From contig BPUI01000002.1 in the NCBI GenBank assembly GCA_019973575.1, positions 372,001-436,000 on the forward strand: DNA of 64,000 nt, given 5' to 3'. Every line of letters starts with the position of its first letter. Position 1 is the first letter of the stretch. Source of the DNA: Gemmatimonadetes bacterium T265. GTDB taxonomy: Bacteria; Gemmatimonadota; Gemmatimonadetes; Gemmatimonadales; Gemmatimonadaceae. Of this stretch, positions 17,718-23,820 are shown piece by piece. Under the pieces are notes generated by a model that saw only the letters and a program-made list of their open reading frames with translations, did not search any database and was not told the origin of the DNA. The position numbers were made by a program, and so were the translations under genes.

Positions 17718-18811
17718 CTGTATTTCGCGAGCGAGGGCGCGTGCTTCGCGATGCGCGTGTCCAGCTCGCAGTGGCAGTTGGGACAGTTGAGCTGGAACGC
17801 GTCGCGCGACGCCCGTCGGTGCGTCTCGGTGAAGACCATCTCCGACAGCCGCTGCTCGTGCAGGTTGCCGAGCCGGAACGTGACGTAGCAGAGCTTCACG
17901 GTGCCGTCCGCGCCGACCCAGATCATCTGGTAGTTGTCGCAGGGCACCTTCATGTCCGGCCCCTTGAGCAGCCAGTTGGGCATCGACCGCATCCCCGCGA
18001 CCGCCTGGGTGAAGCGCGCGGGGTTCGCGAGCCGGCGCTCCAGCAGCGCGTCGACCACGGTGCGGAGCGCCGGCTCGTCCTCGGGGCCGAACTGCAGGCA
18101 GCGGTCCGGCCCTTCGTCGAAGTACGGCAGCGAGTAGTGGATGAGGTCGACGCGCACGAGCAGGTCGTATTTGTCGGCGAACGCGAGCATCTCGTCGAGC
18201 GCCTCGACCGAGCACGTCGGCTTCATGAGGAGCCAGTTGACGCGGAGCCGGACGTCGTTCCCGTAGCGCTCGCGGACCCGGGCGATGCTCGCCTCGACGC
18301 GCGCGAACCGGCCGGCGCGTTGGGCGTACCGGTCGTACGACTCGCCGATGCCGTACAGCCCGACCGTCACGCTGCGGAGCCCGGCGTCGTACAGCTCGTC
18401 GATCTGGCCGCCGAGCCGCACGGCGTTGGTCGTCACGTAGCACTGCATGCCGAGCTTGACCGTGTGCTCGACCATCTTGGGCAGGTCGGGGTGGAGGAGC
18501 GGTTCGCCGCCGTAGAGGCGGACGTCCCACATCCCGATCGCGCGGGCGTCGTCGAGGAGGTCCCGCACGACGGGCCACGGCAGCTGACTGCCGGGCATGA
18601 AGTCGCGCCCGTACCGGCATCCGATACACCGCTGGTTGCAGTGCGCGGTGATCGCGACGTGGAGGCGGCGCGGGTCCGGGCGGATCACGACCGGCAGCAC
18701 GCGCCCGACCGAGTGCCGCGTGCGCTCGATGGACGCGTCGACGGCGCGGGCCGCGCGCCGGATCTGCGGGAAGTCGTCGAGCGCGGAGCGGAGTTGCGAA
18801 CGTACCGTCAT
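17714..18811 (-). CDS. Radical SAM protein with SPASM-like C-terminus
   Basis: A 365-residue radical S-adenosylmethionine enzyme. The cluster motif is CNQRCIGC (CxxxCxxC, about residues 58-65), followed by the SAM-binding glycine block RLYGGEPLL. The C-terminus has Cys-rich segments (VPCDN, VKLCYV, CPNCHCE) of a SPASM-type domain holding extra iron-sulfur clusters. Such proteins modify peptides, sugars or cofactors; the substrate is not evident and no precursor peptide gene is adjacent. The ATG at 18811 is the start. The gene converges on a glycosyltransferase with stops overlapping by 4 bp. Confidence 0.88.
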   Translation of the reverse strand: MTVRSQLRSALDDFPQIRRAARAVDASIERTRHSVGRVLPVVIRPDPRRLHVAITAHCNQRCIGCRYGRDFMPGSQLPWPVVRDLLDDARAIGMWDVRLYGGEPLLHPDLPKMVEHTVKLGMQCYVTTNAVRLGGQIDELYDAGLRSVTVGLYGIGESYDRYAQRAGRFARVEASIARVRERYGNDVRLRVNWLLMKPTCSVEALDEMLAFADKYDLLVRVDLIHYSLPYFDEGPDRCLQFGPEDEPALRTVVDALLERRLANPARFTQAVAGMRSMPNWLLKGPDMKVPCDNYQMIWVGADGTVKLCYVTFRLGNLHEQRLSEMVFTETHRRASRDAFQLNCPNCHCELDTRIAKHAPSLAKYS

Positions 18812-18927
18812 GGGCGGCGTGACTCCGGCGGCGGGTGCGTGGCGGCGGGAGGTGCTGCGGGGCGCGCCAATGTGGGTGCGAGGCTCGGTGGACGCAAGCG
18901 CGCCACAGACCGCGCCCCGCCCGGTCG

Positions 18928-20709
18928 TCAGGTCCGGAAGCCCGCGATCAGCGCGCGTACCCCCGCCGCCCCGGCCGCGAGCTGTTCGGCCGTCGCGGAC
19001 ACCTCCTCGACACTCGCGGCGGTCTCTTCCGTCGCCGCGGCGACTTCTTCCGCGGCCGTCGCGTGACGCCCCGCCGCCTCGCGCGCCCGGGCGAGCGCGT
19101 CGTCGGCGGCCGCGACCGCCTGACGGCTCTCGCGCACCGCGCCCGCCACGCGCGCCGCCGACGCCGCGACGCGCTCGACCGCGGCGTCCACCCGGCCTAA
19201 CGCGCCCGAGGCGCCGCCCGCGACGAGCTCCGCGTCGCGGAGCCGCGCCGCGCCCGCGTCCGCCGCGGCCACCGCGCCGGCGACCTGCGCCCGCATCCGG
19301 CGCACCTGCCCGGCGACCTCGTCGGCCGCCGACGCGCTCTGCTCGGCGAGCGCGCGGACCTCGTCGGCCACGACGGCGAACCCGCGCCCGGCCGGCCCCG
19401 CGCGCGCCGCCTCGAGCGCGGCGTTGAGCGCGAGGAGGTGCGTCTGCGCCGCGACCTCGCCGATCACCGCGGCGAAGTTGTCGGCGACGCCGGCCGCCTC
19501 GCGCAGCGCGCCGAGCTCGCGCGCGGAGGCGTCGGCGACCTCGCGCGCGCCTAACAGCAGCGCCACCGCGCGCCCGATCTCCGCGCGGGCCGCGGCGGCG
19601 GTGCGCCGGATCTCGCGCCCCGCCCGCTCGGCCTCGACCGCCGCGCGCCGGATCGCGAGGCCGCGCTCGGCCAATTCGCGCACCGCGCCGCCCGCCTCCT
19701 CCAGCGCGCCGAGCTGCGTGGCCGCGCCCGCCGAGATCTCCTGGACCGCGCCCGTCACGTGCTGCGTCGCCGCAGCCGTGCCGGTCGCGTTCCCGGCCAG
19801 CTCCGCCGAGGCGGCCGAGACCTGGTCGGCCTCGTCCTGCACGCGGGCGAGGAGCGCCCGCAGCCGCTCGCGCGCCTGGTCGAGCGTGCGGCCGAGCCGC
19901 GCGTACTCGGCCGAGGCGTCGCGGTCGCCGGGGGCGCCGGCGTGCTCGCCGGTGTCGCCGCGCGCGTCGCGCAGGTCGCCCTCGCCCATCGCGCCGAGCT
20001 CCGTGCCTAACGCGACGAGCGGACGGGTCACGGCGTCGGAGGTGCGCATCGCCGCGTACGCGCCGACGACGACCGCGGCGAGGAGCAGGCCGACGAGCCC
20101 CGCCTCGCGCTCGCGGAGCAGCCCGGCGGCTTCGGCCTCGCGCTGGGCGGCGCGCACCGAGGCGGCCGCGCGCAGGCGGCCGAGCTCCTGCTCCACCTGG
20201 TCGACGTCGGCCGCGGCGCGGGCGACCGCGGCGGCCGCGTCGGCGCGCCGGCCGAGGGCGGCGTAGGCGTGGACCATCGCGAGACGCGCCTCGATCGCCG
20301 CCTGCGTGCGCCCCACCGCCTCGAGCCGCTCGCGCTCGACGTCGCCGAGGCCAGGCAGGGCGACCGCGTCGCGACGCAGCCCGTCGGCCTCGTCCATCGC
20401 GCGCTGGTAGCGGCGTGCGGCGTCGTAGTCGCCCCCGTCGGCGTAGCGCGTGCCGGCGACGATCTCGCGTAACAGGGCGGGACTTACCTGCCCGACGGTC
20501 TCGTAGTGGGCATGAAGTGATGCGACGATGTCGGCATGACGCGCCGACGCCGCATGGAGAGTGGCGAGCCCGAGGGCGCCCGCGGCGCCGAGTAGCGCGA
20601 GCGTGCTGCCGAAGCCGAGGCGCAGGCGGCCGGTGATCGTCCAGCGCGCCGGCGTGCGCGGCAGCGCGCCCGAGATCGCGCGCGCGGGCGACGGGAGGGC
20701 GAGGCTCAC
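18928..20709 (-). CDS. Methyl-accepting chemotaxis protein
   Basis: A 593-residue chemoreceptor. After a cytoplasmic N-terminus there is a membrane helix (about residues 33-52), a helical extracytoplasmic region of about 140 residues, a second membrane helix, a HAMP-type linker beginning TRPLVALG, and a long Ala-rich coiled-coil signalling domain. The hairpin tip is nearly canonical: [20 protein letters not shown] then [16 protein letters not shown]. It would control CheA/CheW arrays. The start is a GTG (20709) that overlaps the upstream binding-protein stop as GTGA, so the two are translationally coupled. Confidence 0.92.
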
Positions 20710-21977
20710 GGAGCGCTCGGACGGACGGCCGCCGAACGGTCGACGGGCACCGTCGCGACCACCACGCCGCGTCCGACGACGCCATGCCCCGCGTCGAAGG
20801 CGATCGGACCGGCCACACCGGGCACCGCGGGCGTGGCGCCGCCGAGCGTGGCGAGCCAGTCGCGCACGCGGCGGCGGCGGTCGGGGGCATCGAGGTCGAC
20901 CGCGAGCGCGGCGCGACCGAGCAGGAGGGCGGCCTCGTAGGCCATCGCGGCGCGCGCGTTGGGGCGTTCGCCGTAGCGGGCCACGTAGCGCGCGACGAAC
21001 GCGCGCGCGGCGGCAGGGGCGCCGGGGCGCGCGGCGGTCGCTGCCGCGAACGGTACGGCGTAGCGCATGCCCGCGAACTCGGCCGAATCGGCGAGCGGAG
21101 CGACCGCGTCCCCGCCGACGAACGGCGTGCGGTCGCCCGCTGCGCGCAGGGCGCGGAGCAGCTGCCCCGCGTCGTCGGCGGATCCGGGGAAGAGGACAAC
21201 CTCGGGGTGGCGGGACGCGAGGTAGCGCGCGTAGACCGGCCATTCGGTGACGCCGGCGAGGTACGGGTCGCGCGCGACGAGGGCGCCGCCGCGGCGCGCG
21301 AAGGCGTGCGCGAAGGCGGCGGCCCAGTCGCGGCCGGACGCGTCGTTGCGGTAGACCACGGCCGCGCGGCGCGCGCCGAGCGAATCGGCGACGTACGCGG
21401 CGACCGCACGGCTCGCCGTCTCGTCATCGGGCGAAAGGCGGAAGAGCCAGGGCGAGCGCCCGACGAGGGCGGCGTTCGTCGCGGTTGGGGCCACCGTGGC
21501 GAGCGCGTGCGCGTCGCCGTGCGCGGCGTCGTCGATCGTGGGCCGTGTGCCGGGCGAGCGGCCGTTCCCGGAACGGCCGCTCTCGGAGCGGCCGCTCTCG
21601 GGGTCGCCGACGACGCCGATCACGGCGGGGTCGTCGCGGAGGCGTTCGGTGGCCGCGACCGCGGTGCTGGCATCGGGCCGCGCGCCGCGGACGGTGAAGC
21701 GGACGCGGCGTGCGCGGGCGGCGGGGTCGTCGGCGAGCGTCTGCGTGGCGAGCGTCACGCCGCGTTCGAGCGCGAGCATGCCCCCCCGGTCCGTGTCGAG
21801 CGCGAGGCCGATCGCGACGTCCCGCGGGGCGGCATCCTGCGGGGATGCGCGGTCCGCACCGGCCGCGGCCGCCTGCGAACAGGCCTGGGCACAACTCGCC
21901 AGGATCAGCGCGTTGAGCGGGCACCTGATTGCGGGCGTGCGATGCGTCGGGCGACCCGGCACACGGAGTGCTGGCAT
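20706..21977 (-). CDS. Periplasmic binding protein of the branched-chain amino acid (LivJ-like) type
   Basis: A 423-residue type I periplasmic binding protein with a signal-like N-terminus ([13 protein letters not shown], possible lipobox), then [21 protein letters not shown] and the usual two-lobe pattern, including [20 protein letters not shown] and [19 protein letters not shown]. These proteins bind amino acids, amides or similar small ligands. No ABC permease genes are adjacent. Instead the stop overlaps the start of a chemoreceptor gene, so it may deliver ligand to that receptor. A 15-bp tandem repeat (21558-21602) inserts a Gly-Arg-Ser-rich loop. Confidence 0.82.
21558..21602. repeat. 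15-bp tandem repeat, three units, in binding-protein gene
   Basis: Three consecutive 15-bp units (21558-21572, 21573-21587, 21588-21602) differ by a few bases. On the coding strand they add a Gly-Arg-Ser-rich loop in frame, a likely slippage product. Confidence 0.75.
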
Positions 21978-22260
21978 CAGCGGCAGGACGGGCGTGTGGC
22001 GGAGGCGGCGGAGGGCGGTGCGCCGGAACGACGATCGGCGCGCGGCCGGCGAAACCGCTGCGCGACTCGGCAGAACGCTCTGTCGCGCGCCGTACCGATG
22101 CAGTGCGTCTCACGCATGAGCTGGCCGTGTGCTCGCTTGCTACTCCGGAAACGCGACGGTTACCTTGCCCACGTTGCCGCACGACCGCAGGTCACGTTTT
22201 GCTGGCGCCCGCCGTTCGGACGACGAGCGGGCGACCACACGCCGCCTCACATCGACTGGC
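21978..22260. other. Divergent intergenic region before the oxidase operon
   Basis: 283 bp between the binding-protein gene (minus) and ctaC (plus). It must carry the promoter of the cytochrome oxidase operon. It is less GC-rich near 22130-22200, where a weak TTGCTA with TTACCT 17 bp later is the best promoter-like pair on the plus strand. I see no strong operator palindrome. Confidence 0.4.
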
Positions 22261-23820
22261 ATGACACGCACTTTCCGCCCGCGGCCACGCGGCATGGCCG
22301 CGGCTGCTCGCGCGGCTGCTCGCGCGGCTGCTCGCGCGGTCTCGGCATGCGCGCTGCCGCTCGCGGCCGTCGCGCTCCTGGCGATGACGGCCTGCGAAGG
22401 CCCGGGCACGCCCGATTCGGTCCTCACGACCCACAGCGAGACGAACGTCGCGGTCCTCGGGTTGTGGAAGTACCTGTTCTTCTTCGGCACGCTCGTCTTC
22501 ATCATCGTCGAGGTGCTGCTGCTGTACGTGATCTTCAAGTTCCGCCGGAAGCCGGGGCAGGCGGAGCCGCGGCACGTGCACGGCAACACGACGCTCGAGG
22601 TGCTCTGGACGGCGATCCCGGCGGTGATCCTCGTGTTCATCGCCGTGCCGACGGTGCGGACGATCTTCCGCACGCAGGCGAAGGCGAAGGCGGGCGCGCT
22701 GCAGGTCGAGGTGATCGGGCACCAGTGGTGGTGGGAGTTCCGATACCCCGAGTACAACATCACGACGGCCAACGAGCTGTACCTGCCGACGGGGCGCACG
22801 GTGAACTTCGCGCTGAAGACCGCCGACGTGCTGCACTCGTTCTGGATCCCGGCGCTCTCGGGCAAGCGCGACCTGATCGCGAACCACACGAATTACCTGT
22901 GGTTCACGCCGGACTCGGCGCTCGGCGCCGCGGCGTGGAACGGGCACTGCGCCGAGTACTGTGGGGCGAGCCACGCGAACATGAGGTTCCGCGTGTATAC
23001 GGTCAAGCCGGCGCAGTTCGAGAGCTGGGCGAAGGGTCAGCAGCAGATCGCGGCGTACGGCGCGGTCGCGCCGGCCGGTGGCGCGCCGGGCACCGGCGCG
23101 GCGCAGGGCAGCATGCCGGTGTCGGCGGGCGACTCGGCGGCTGCCAAGGCCACCGCGCGGCAGCAGCAGCAGATCTCGACGGGCGGCCCCAAGTCACAGA
23201 CCGGCCAGCCCGCCGTGAGTGGTGACGTGGCCGCGCGCAACAACCCGGCCCCGACCGTGAACGCGTCGGGCGCGGGCACGCCGCAGGCGGGCGTCGCGGG
23301 TGCGCGCCCGGGCACGGTCACGGCGCAGGCTCCGGTCACCCCGCAGACGGCGCAGCAGCAGGCGCAGTACGCGGCGGTGCCGGCGGGCTACACGTTCCCG
23401 GCGGCCTCGCTCAACGCGGAGCGGCGGGGCATCATGCCTGAGACGCCGATTCCCGACGGGCTCCGCATCAACACGGCCCTCGCCGGCGACGCGGCCCGCG
23501 GGCTCAAGACCTACTCGGTCAAGGCCTGTATCGGCTGCCACTACATCAACGGCAATCCCGCGTCGATGGGCAAGGTCGGGCCGAACCTGACGCACATCGG
23601 GTCGCGCAACACGATCGCCGGCGGGCTCTTCCCGAACGACACGCGGCACCTGACGGCGTGGGTCAAGAACTCGCGCGCCATGAAGCCCGGCGTGACGATG
23701 CCCACCCTCGGGCTGAACGAGTATGATCCGACGACCAAGGCCAAGGTCACGGCGGGCCTCGGCGGCCTCACGGATCAGGAAATCGCCGACATCGTGGCGT
23801 ACCTGCACGCGTTGAAGTAA
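22261..23820 (+). CDS. ctaC: Cytochrome c oxidase subunit II with fused cytochrome c (caa3 type)
   Basis: A 519-residue protein: a signal with lipobox-like AMTAC, two membrane helices, the periplasmic CuA cupredoxin domain and a C-terminal c-type cytochrome. The CuA ligands are in HCAEYCGASHANM, preceded by the aromatic WWWEFRYPEYN; the heme site is CIGCH with a distal Met likely in GVTMPTLG. A low-complexity Gln/Ala/Gly/Pro linker of about 110 residues separates the two domains. It receives electrons into CuA via its own heme and passes them to subunit I. ATG codons at 22261 and 22294 are both possible starts. Confidence 0.95.
   Translation: MTRTFRPRPRGMAAAARAAARAAARAVSACALPLAAVALLAMTACEGPGTPDSVLTTHSETNVAVLGLWKYLFFFGTLVFIIVEVLLLYVIFKFRRKPGQAEPRHVHGNTTLEVLWTAIPAVILVFIAVPTVRTIFRTQAKAKAGALQVEVIGHQWWWEFRYPEYNITTANELYLPTGRTVNFALKTADVLHSFWIPALSGKRDLIANHTNYLWFTPDSALGAAAWNGHCAEYCGASHANMRFRVYTVKPAQFESWAKGQQQIAAYGAVAPAGGAPGTGAAQGSMPVSAGDSAAAKATARQQQQISTGGPKSQTGQPAVSGDVAARNNPAPTVNASGAGTPQAGVAGARPGTVTAQAPVTPQTAQQQAQYAAVPAGYTFPAASLNAERRGIMPETPIPDGLRINTALAGDAARGLKTYSVKACIGCHYINGNPASMGKVGPNLTHIGSRNTIAGGLFPNDTRHLTAWVKNSRAMKPGVTMPTLGLNEYDPTTKAKVTAGLGGLTDQEIADIVAYLHALK
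22300..22335. repeat. 12-bp tandem repeat, three exact units, in ctaC signal region
   Basis: Three exact copies of GCGGCTGCTCGC in a row encode Ala-Ala-Ala-Arg units in the N-region of the ctaC signal peptide. Copy number changes would stay in frame. Confidence 0.85.

Follow-up and report, generated by a model that had tools for sequence, protein, structure and literature searches.

A LivJ-type binding protein gene overlapping a chemoreceptor gene in Gemmatimonadetes bacterium T265, a candidate importer-free sensing pair

In the genome of Gemmatimonadetes bacterium T265 (5.63 Mb, 97.56% complete), the gene for a LivJ-type binding protein (SBP) runs into the gene for a chemoreceptor (MCP), a pairing that recurs across the family and beyond. 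The first-pass annotation of the window, by which we mean the whole stretch of 64,000 nucleotides analysed (G000:C2:372001-436000), had suggested that the two form a self-contained ligand-sensing unit. The conserved pairing and the failure to find an importer support this as the best reading, and we consider it quite probable that the pair is a dedicated, importer-free chemosensor in which the SBP docks on the MCP, an interaction that we infer. The host also carries a related SBP whose gene overlaps that of a GGDEF-EAL protein bearing a homologous sensor domain.

The gene pair and its products

The GTGA overlap between the LivJ-like gene and the MCP gene was confirmed, its four positions being common to both open reading frames (Table 1), in the coding-strand context GCTCCGTGAGCC. 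By itself this proves nothing, since 4-bp overlaps are ordinary in the host genome (24 of the 114 cases in which neighbouring genes share a strand, counted over ten stretches with a simple gene caller). Neither a sigma-70-like promoter nor a terminator was found in 18700-22400. A radical SAM/SPASM gene lies downstream of the MCP gene, and a cytochrome oxidase operon (genes named by eye) is divergent from the pair.

Table 1. Features of the gene pair and of the two other Peripla_BP_6 loci of the host genome; positions refer to the window unless a contig (C1, C6) is named
Feature	Position	Strand	Basis and description
SBP (LivJ-type binding protein) gene	20706..21977	minus	ORF, 423 aa, Peripla_BP_6, probable lipoprotein
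MCP (chemoreceptor) gene	18928..20709	minus	ORF, 593 aa, GTG start, MCPsignal
GTGA overlap, SBP stop and MCP start	20706..20709	minus	shared by both ORFs
MCPsignal match with conserved tip, residues 389-529	19123..19545	minus	Pfam
MCP periplasmic sensor domain, approximately residues 53-200, four helices	20110..20553	minus	AlphaFold2 pLDDT approximately 82-93; membrane segments by eye
15-bp tandem repeat, 3.6 copies, inside SBP gene	21556..21609	minus	10-residue insertion
Peripla_BP_6 SBP and GGDEF-EAL protein	SBP C1:1983508-1984647		4-bp overlap
Peripla_BP_6 SBP and DUF7005 protein	SBP C6:13937-15043		4-bp overlap

The window SBP matches Peripla_BP_6 over residues 70-410 (E 6.6e-27), with a weaker match to ANF_receptor, and its model (25 sequences, mean pLDDT 85) shows the two-lobed LivJ-type fold; family match and fold together place it among the LivJ-type Peripla_BP_6 proteins. 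The earlier label "LivJ-like" was borne out, as the closest solved relatives in sequence and fold are LivJ/LivK-type proteins, with LivJ 4gnr a solved relative. Named relatives belong to Gemmatimonadota, e.g. Roseisolibacter and Gemmatimonas, and none was found on viral contigs. The signal peptide is short and is accompanied by a lipobox, LILASC (Cys29), recognised by eye and by a loose pattern that also occurs in 55 of 65 family SBPs, start codons being uncertain. At the positions of S79, T102, Y202 and E226, which we take to be the amino-acid contacts of LivJ, the window SBP has S, T, S and D, as counted on the alignment. The 10-residue insertion made by the tandem repeat adjoins the Ser79 position, beside the ligand cleft, and is missing in seven aligned relatives. 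This repeat is a candidate for strain-to-strain length variation.

For the window MCP the sole Pfam match is MCPsignal (E 5.3e-24). Neither 4HB_MCP_1 nor TarH was matched by Pfam in this protein, and nor was HAMP, in contrast to 39 of 44 full-length family partners. The tip is conserved except for an exchange of Asn for His. The same position, the Asn of QTNLLALN, is also His in L038, L180 and L181. Among solved structures, the Thermotoga MCP 2ch7 is a relative. The MCP model (24 sequences, pLDDT 73, pTM 0.35) can be read at local scale only. MCP models and cytoplasmic parts head the list of its fold matches, and the four-helix sensor domains 3va9, 4k0d, 5xua and 5xsj match weakly (E 0.18-1.2, TM 0.60-0.75 by target length).

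Conservation of the pairing

SBP homologues were detected in 47 of 59 family genomes (SBP search, E 1e-10): 46 of the 54 that encode an MCP have them, versus one of the five that do not (Fisher p 0.005, uncorrected for relatedness). The first sample (n = 67) was made up of 65 regions, the window and the L005 locus; three loci (L009, L088, L091) run off their contigs, so that 64 were assessable. Where two SBP genes stand in tandem (L054, L077), the first did not receive a count of its own. An MCP directly follows the SBP in 48 of these 64 loci, in 42 genomes, including four partners cut by contig ends (L041, L057, L060, L065) and classed by N-terminal similarity. The spacing is -4 in 44 of the 48 pairs, -1 in two, -11 in one and +7 in one, and this conservation of the overlap with the same two partners is beyond chance. 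The remaining 16 loci carry kinase-type (n = 9), GGDEF (n = 2) or DUF7005 (n = 3) partners, or are without a following partner (n = 2; L090, L096). Pfam recognised MCPsignal in all 44 full-length MCP partners, HAMP in 39, 4HB_MCP_1 in ten and TarH in one; ten non-MCP partners comprised five HisKA/HATPase/receiver hybrids, three DUF7005 and two GGDEF proteins, and the other four kinase-type partners were assigned by sequence motif.

A second sample of 29 loci, drawn from a named genome collection, showed a receptor next after the SBP in 27 of 27 assessable loci (L106 and L107 were unassessable), spaced at -4 (n = 17), -1 (n = 8), +2 (n = 1) or +5 (n = 1). Four of the 29 (L106, L113, L130, L131) repeat first-sample records, three of them among the 27; furthermore, L117 and L132 are truncated, whereas L134 is without the motif as written but aligns with MCPs. 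By title all belong to Gemmatimonadota except one "bacterium" and one Candidatus Kuenenia, perhaps a mislabelled bin. At phylum level the SBP profile matched in 203 of 298 genomes (E 1e-20), a number that may include other SBPs of the same fold. Twenty loci from other families of the class were picked by hand among the matches listed, and in 15 of these the MCP follows the SBP (families f2, f3, f6, f9), the SBP standing alone in five (f4, f6). Conservation in related genomes, by which the first-pass annotation had proposed to judge the pair, was thus found in the family, in the second sample and in most outside loci, but it is not exclusive: separated or re-partnered forms occur among more distant homologues.

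A natural SBP-MCP fusion was considered for Roseisolibacter sp. H3M3-2 (L009 = L106), where the SBP and the start of the MCP lie in a single frame, and rejected: the end of its SBP part is not SBP-like, little of the contig is left beyond this point, and placing an SBP ahead of TM1 misfits the topology. The single frame was taken as a probable frameshift and was left out of the counts.

Distances between SBPs (44 pairs) follow those of the sensor domain (r 0.91) and of the signalling domain (r 0.94). The partial correlation of SBP and sensor domain given the signalling domain is 0.36 (2000 shuffles: mean 0, sd 0.07), and that of SBP and signalling domain given the sensor domain is 0.61. As the signalling domain tracks the SBP no less closely than the sensor domain does, the co-divergence points to joint inheritance and not to a specific interface.

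Of the 42 genomes with the pair, 27 have a PF04371 (aguA-type, agmatine-deiminase-family) gene no more than 15 kb away from it, the match in G035 being a fragment. Across 47 loci with short flanks, the genes near the pair include queC (n = 21), aguA (n = 16), queE (n = 13) and aguB (n = 10), with aguA assigned by PF04371 and the others named by eye. A block of aguB-aguA-SBP-MCP-queC-queE is seen in many relatives, e.g. L050, L064, L067, L083 and L086. The relatives thus offer agmatine metabolism as a lead to the ligand, but agmatine itself was tried as the ligand and rejected: a queC-like gene is equally near, PF04371 is near-universal (58 of 59 family genomes regardless of the pair, and on another contig in the window genome), and simple synteny may account for the arrangement. 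In the window, L009, L038, L039 and L042-L045, a cytochrome c oxidase subunit gene (named by eye) points away from the pair; energy taxis, suggested by this neighbour, was likewise set aside, the arrangement being taken as local synteny.

Chemotaxis, importer search and a second output in the host genome

One cluster of the host genome encodes CheA, CheC, a CheY-like receiver, CheW and CheR, and a second encodes flagellin, FliD and another CheW. With both che and flagellar genes present, flagellar chemotaxis is likely in the host, judging by gene content, and the window MCP is the only full-length receptor found for it in this genome. MCPsignal scored above the cut-off in the window MCP and in a 241-aa protein, with a third match below the cut-off. 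The 241-aa protein (L006:6184-6909, G000:C1) is without an evident membrane helix.

The first-pass annotation had seen no ABC permease near the pair and had named a permease operon elsewhere that uses this SBP as evidence against a dedicated unit. Its observation holds as far as seen, with the PF02653 matches listed (five of seven) all outside the window. The host genome has seven PF02653 matches, and four fetched loci hold seven such permeases, equal to the total. In NCBIfam, below its cut-offs, these came nearest to sugar-type (RbsC/AraH/Lsr) or B6-type families, and we class them as sugar-type or B6/nucleoside-like; five of the seven share a locus with an SBP of another family, whereas inspection of the fourth locus (L104) showed no gene for an SBP. 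None of the seven is of the Liv type that might use the window SBP. The PF02653 search of this 97.56% complete genome found no LivH/LivM-type permease, and no LivH/LivM/LivF/LivG-type neighbours of the pair were found. Peripla_BP_6 genes number only three in the host genome, each running 4 bp into a following non-permease gene (Table 1).

One of these three is followed by a DUF7005 gene. Such SBP-DUF7005 neighbours occur in three genomes (L100:3281-5628 on G000:C6, L093, L098), with a 4-bp overlap in two and a 4-bp gap in one, and in L100 they adjoin an ABC exporter-like gene. A partnership of SBP and DUF7005 protein is possible.

The other is an SBP paralogue, 45% identical to the window SBP, beside a GGDEF-EAL gene (L005:12491-15987, G000:C1) near the flagellar cluster. 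An MCP sensor-domain profile built from 24 sequences, the window MCP included, matches residues 42-244 of the GGDEF-EAL protein over the whole profile length (E 2.6e-35), and a wider profile (44 sequences) matches the same protein at E 1.5e-32. Both were run against 163 entries, mostly unrelated genes, with the window MCP and the GGDEF-EAL protein as controls. The only other match at E < 0.1 was kinase L089 (2.4e-5) for the 24-sequence profile; the 44-sequence profile also matched kinases L077 (1.5e-7), L089 (1.6e-5) and L097 (0.0014) and an unrelated helical protein (0.032). Direct blastp of SBP against SBP and of sensor against sensor domain gave no alignment, both similarities being shown by genome and profile searches. 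The occurrence of a paralogous SBP together with a homologous sensor domain on a GGDEF-EAL protein shows the two parts moving as a unit between different outputs. The family loci examined contained no further window-type SBP partnered by a GGDEF-EAL protein, the GGDEF partner in L087 is without the MCP-type sensor domain, and four GGDEF-EAL loci of two related genomes yielded neither a window-type SBP nor the sensor domain (phmmer/hmmsearch, 1e-3).

At three loci of two related genomes (L191:2260-4921, L193:475-3050, L194:1866-4639) the GGDEF-EAL gene is preceded by one for a short exported protein of 152-183 aa. By eye these proteins look like the one-domain phosphate-binding type, perhaps another pairing of an SBP with c-di-GMP turnover.

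Proposed mechanism and comparison with known systems

In the mechanism that we propose, the SBP would be exported and lipid-anchored, and would bind a small ligand, probably an amino acid, amine or related compound, in its LivJ-type cleft. The loaded SBP would then dock on the four-helix periplasmic domain of the MCP encoded by the next gene, and the signal would pass through TM2 and a diverged HAMP region to CheA/CheW and on to the flagella.

Alternatively, the four-helix domain of the MCP may sense a small ligand directly, with the SBP a scavenger or buffer kept by operon inertia. The four-helix sensor domains of receptors such as MCP2201 (5xua, one of the weak fold matches of the MCP model) do bind ligands directly. 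Direct sensing would also fit the joint inheritance of SBP and MCP without a sensor-domain-specific signal, and adjacency need not mean function (PMC11113362). However, the pairing is kept over several families, no importer was found for the SBP, and inertia does not explain an SBP and a homologous sensor domain joined to another output in the same genome, and we consider direct sensing rather improbable. It would be more surprising still if the SBP served an ABC importer encoded elsewhere, the receptor borrowing it as in the maltose system. The Peripla_BP_6 family consists mostly of importer SBPs, and an importer could be missed in a genome that is 97.56% complete, but all seven PF02653 permeases resemble sugar-type or B6/nucleoside-like proteins, none being Liv-like, and five are encoded in loci that hold SBPs of other families. 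We see equally little chance that the pair is decaying in the host genome. The repeat insertion near the SBP cleft, the His for Asn in the MCP tip and the lack of a Pfam HAMP match in the window MCP, as against 39 of 44 partners with one, would agree with decay, whereas both frames are open across 1,016 codons, the SBP has kept its conserved motifs and the MCP most of its conserved tip, and the tip His is shared with L038, L180 and L181.

Beyond the dedicated chemosensor itself, we tentatively raise a broader scenario, which we regard as possible and not as the likelier outcome. LivJ-type SBPs of this lineage may have given up transport and may now serve signalling receptors as an exchangeable ligand-reading half, with units of lipoprotein and four-helix domain driving swimming through the MCP and c-di-GMP through the GGDEF-EAL protein. 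The pair would then be the only transmembrane chemotaxis input of the host, and the ancestral ligand may belong to arginine/agmatine/putrescine metabolism, because of the agmatine-deiminase-family gene close to the pair in 27 of 42 pair genomes. With a family-wide, genetically coupled set that lacks a cognate importer, many natural SBP-receptor pairs become available for docking and specificity work. The set also opens a way to ligands in a phylum on whose chemotaxis little was found in the literature; no paper on an SBP-MCP pair in Gemmatimonadota was found by title or abstract in the open literature. The GGDEF-EAL version in the host genome constitutes a natural domain-swap test of whether SBP and sensor domain are the unit.

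The pair represents a known kind of system that is retained unusually widely here, and its conservation, the missing importer and the output swap lift it above the routine. Tar of E. coli, which has a four-helix periplasmic domain, senses via maltose-binding protein, itself part of an importer operon, and also binds aspartate directly. The principle of SBP-mediated sensing (PMC9602780) and a receptor with a four-helix periplasmic domain would, on the proposed reading, be common to Tar and the present pair. In the present pair the two genes overlap, and the search turned up no importer, unlike the maltose system. SBPs can activate chemoreceptors, kinases, c-di-GMP enzymes and Ser/Thr kinases, as stated in the same article (PMC9602780). 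According to PMC11113362, 11 chemoreceptor-SBP couples have been studied, adjacent in only three. For SBP-activated sensor kinases the SBP gene is beside the receptor gene in 10 of 11 characterised cases; two kinases adjoining SBP genes were not activated by those SBPs. With XylFII-LytS the resemblance lies in the LytS sensor domain of the XylFII complex (5xsj), which the MCP model matches weakly by fold (E 0.87, TM 0.60 by target length). The output of that system is a kinase, and nine of the 64 SBP homologues here pair with kinase-type proteins, five of them Pfam-confirmed. LivJ and LivK of the branched-chain amino acid ABC importers share fold and family with the window SBP. The latter differs in that neither neighbours of the LivH/LivM/LivF/LivG type nor a Liv-type permease elsewhere in the genome turned up. 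SBPs of the BasB/CosB type are reportedly lipoproteins encoded beside their transducers. BasB, CosB and two further putative SBPs copurify with transducers of Halobacterium salinarum (PMC3579733). BasB-BasT and CosB-CosT likewise combine an SBP with a two-TM transducer; they are archaeal, whereas the present pair is bacterial, occurs across the family and beyond, and has a related unit with a GGDEF-EAL output.
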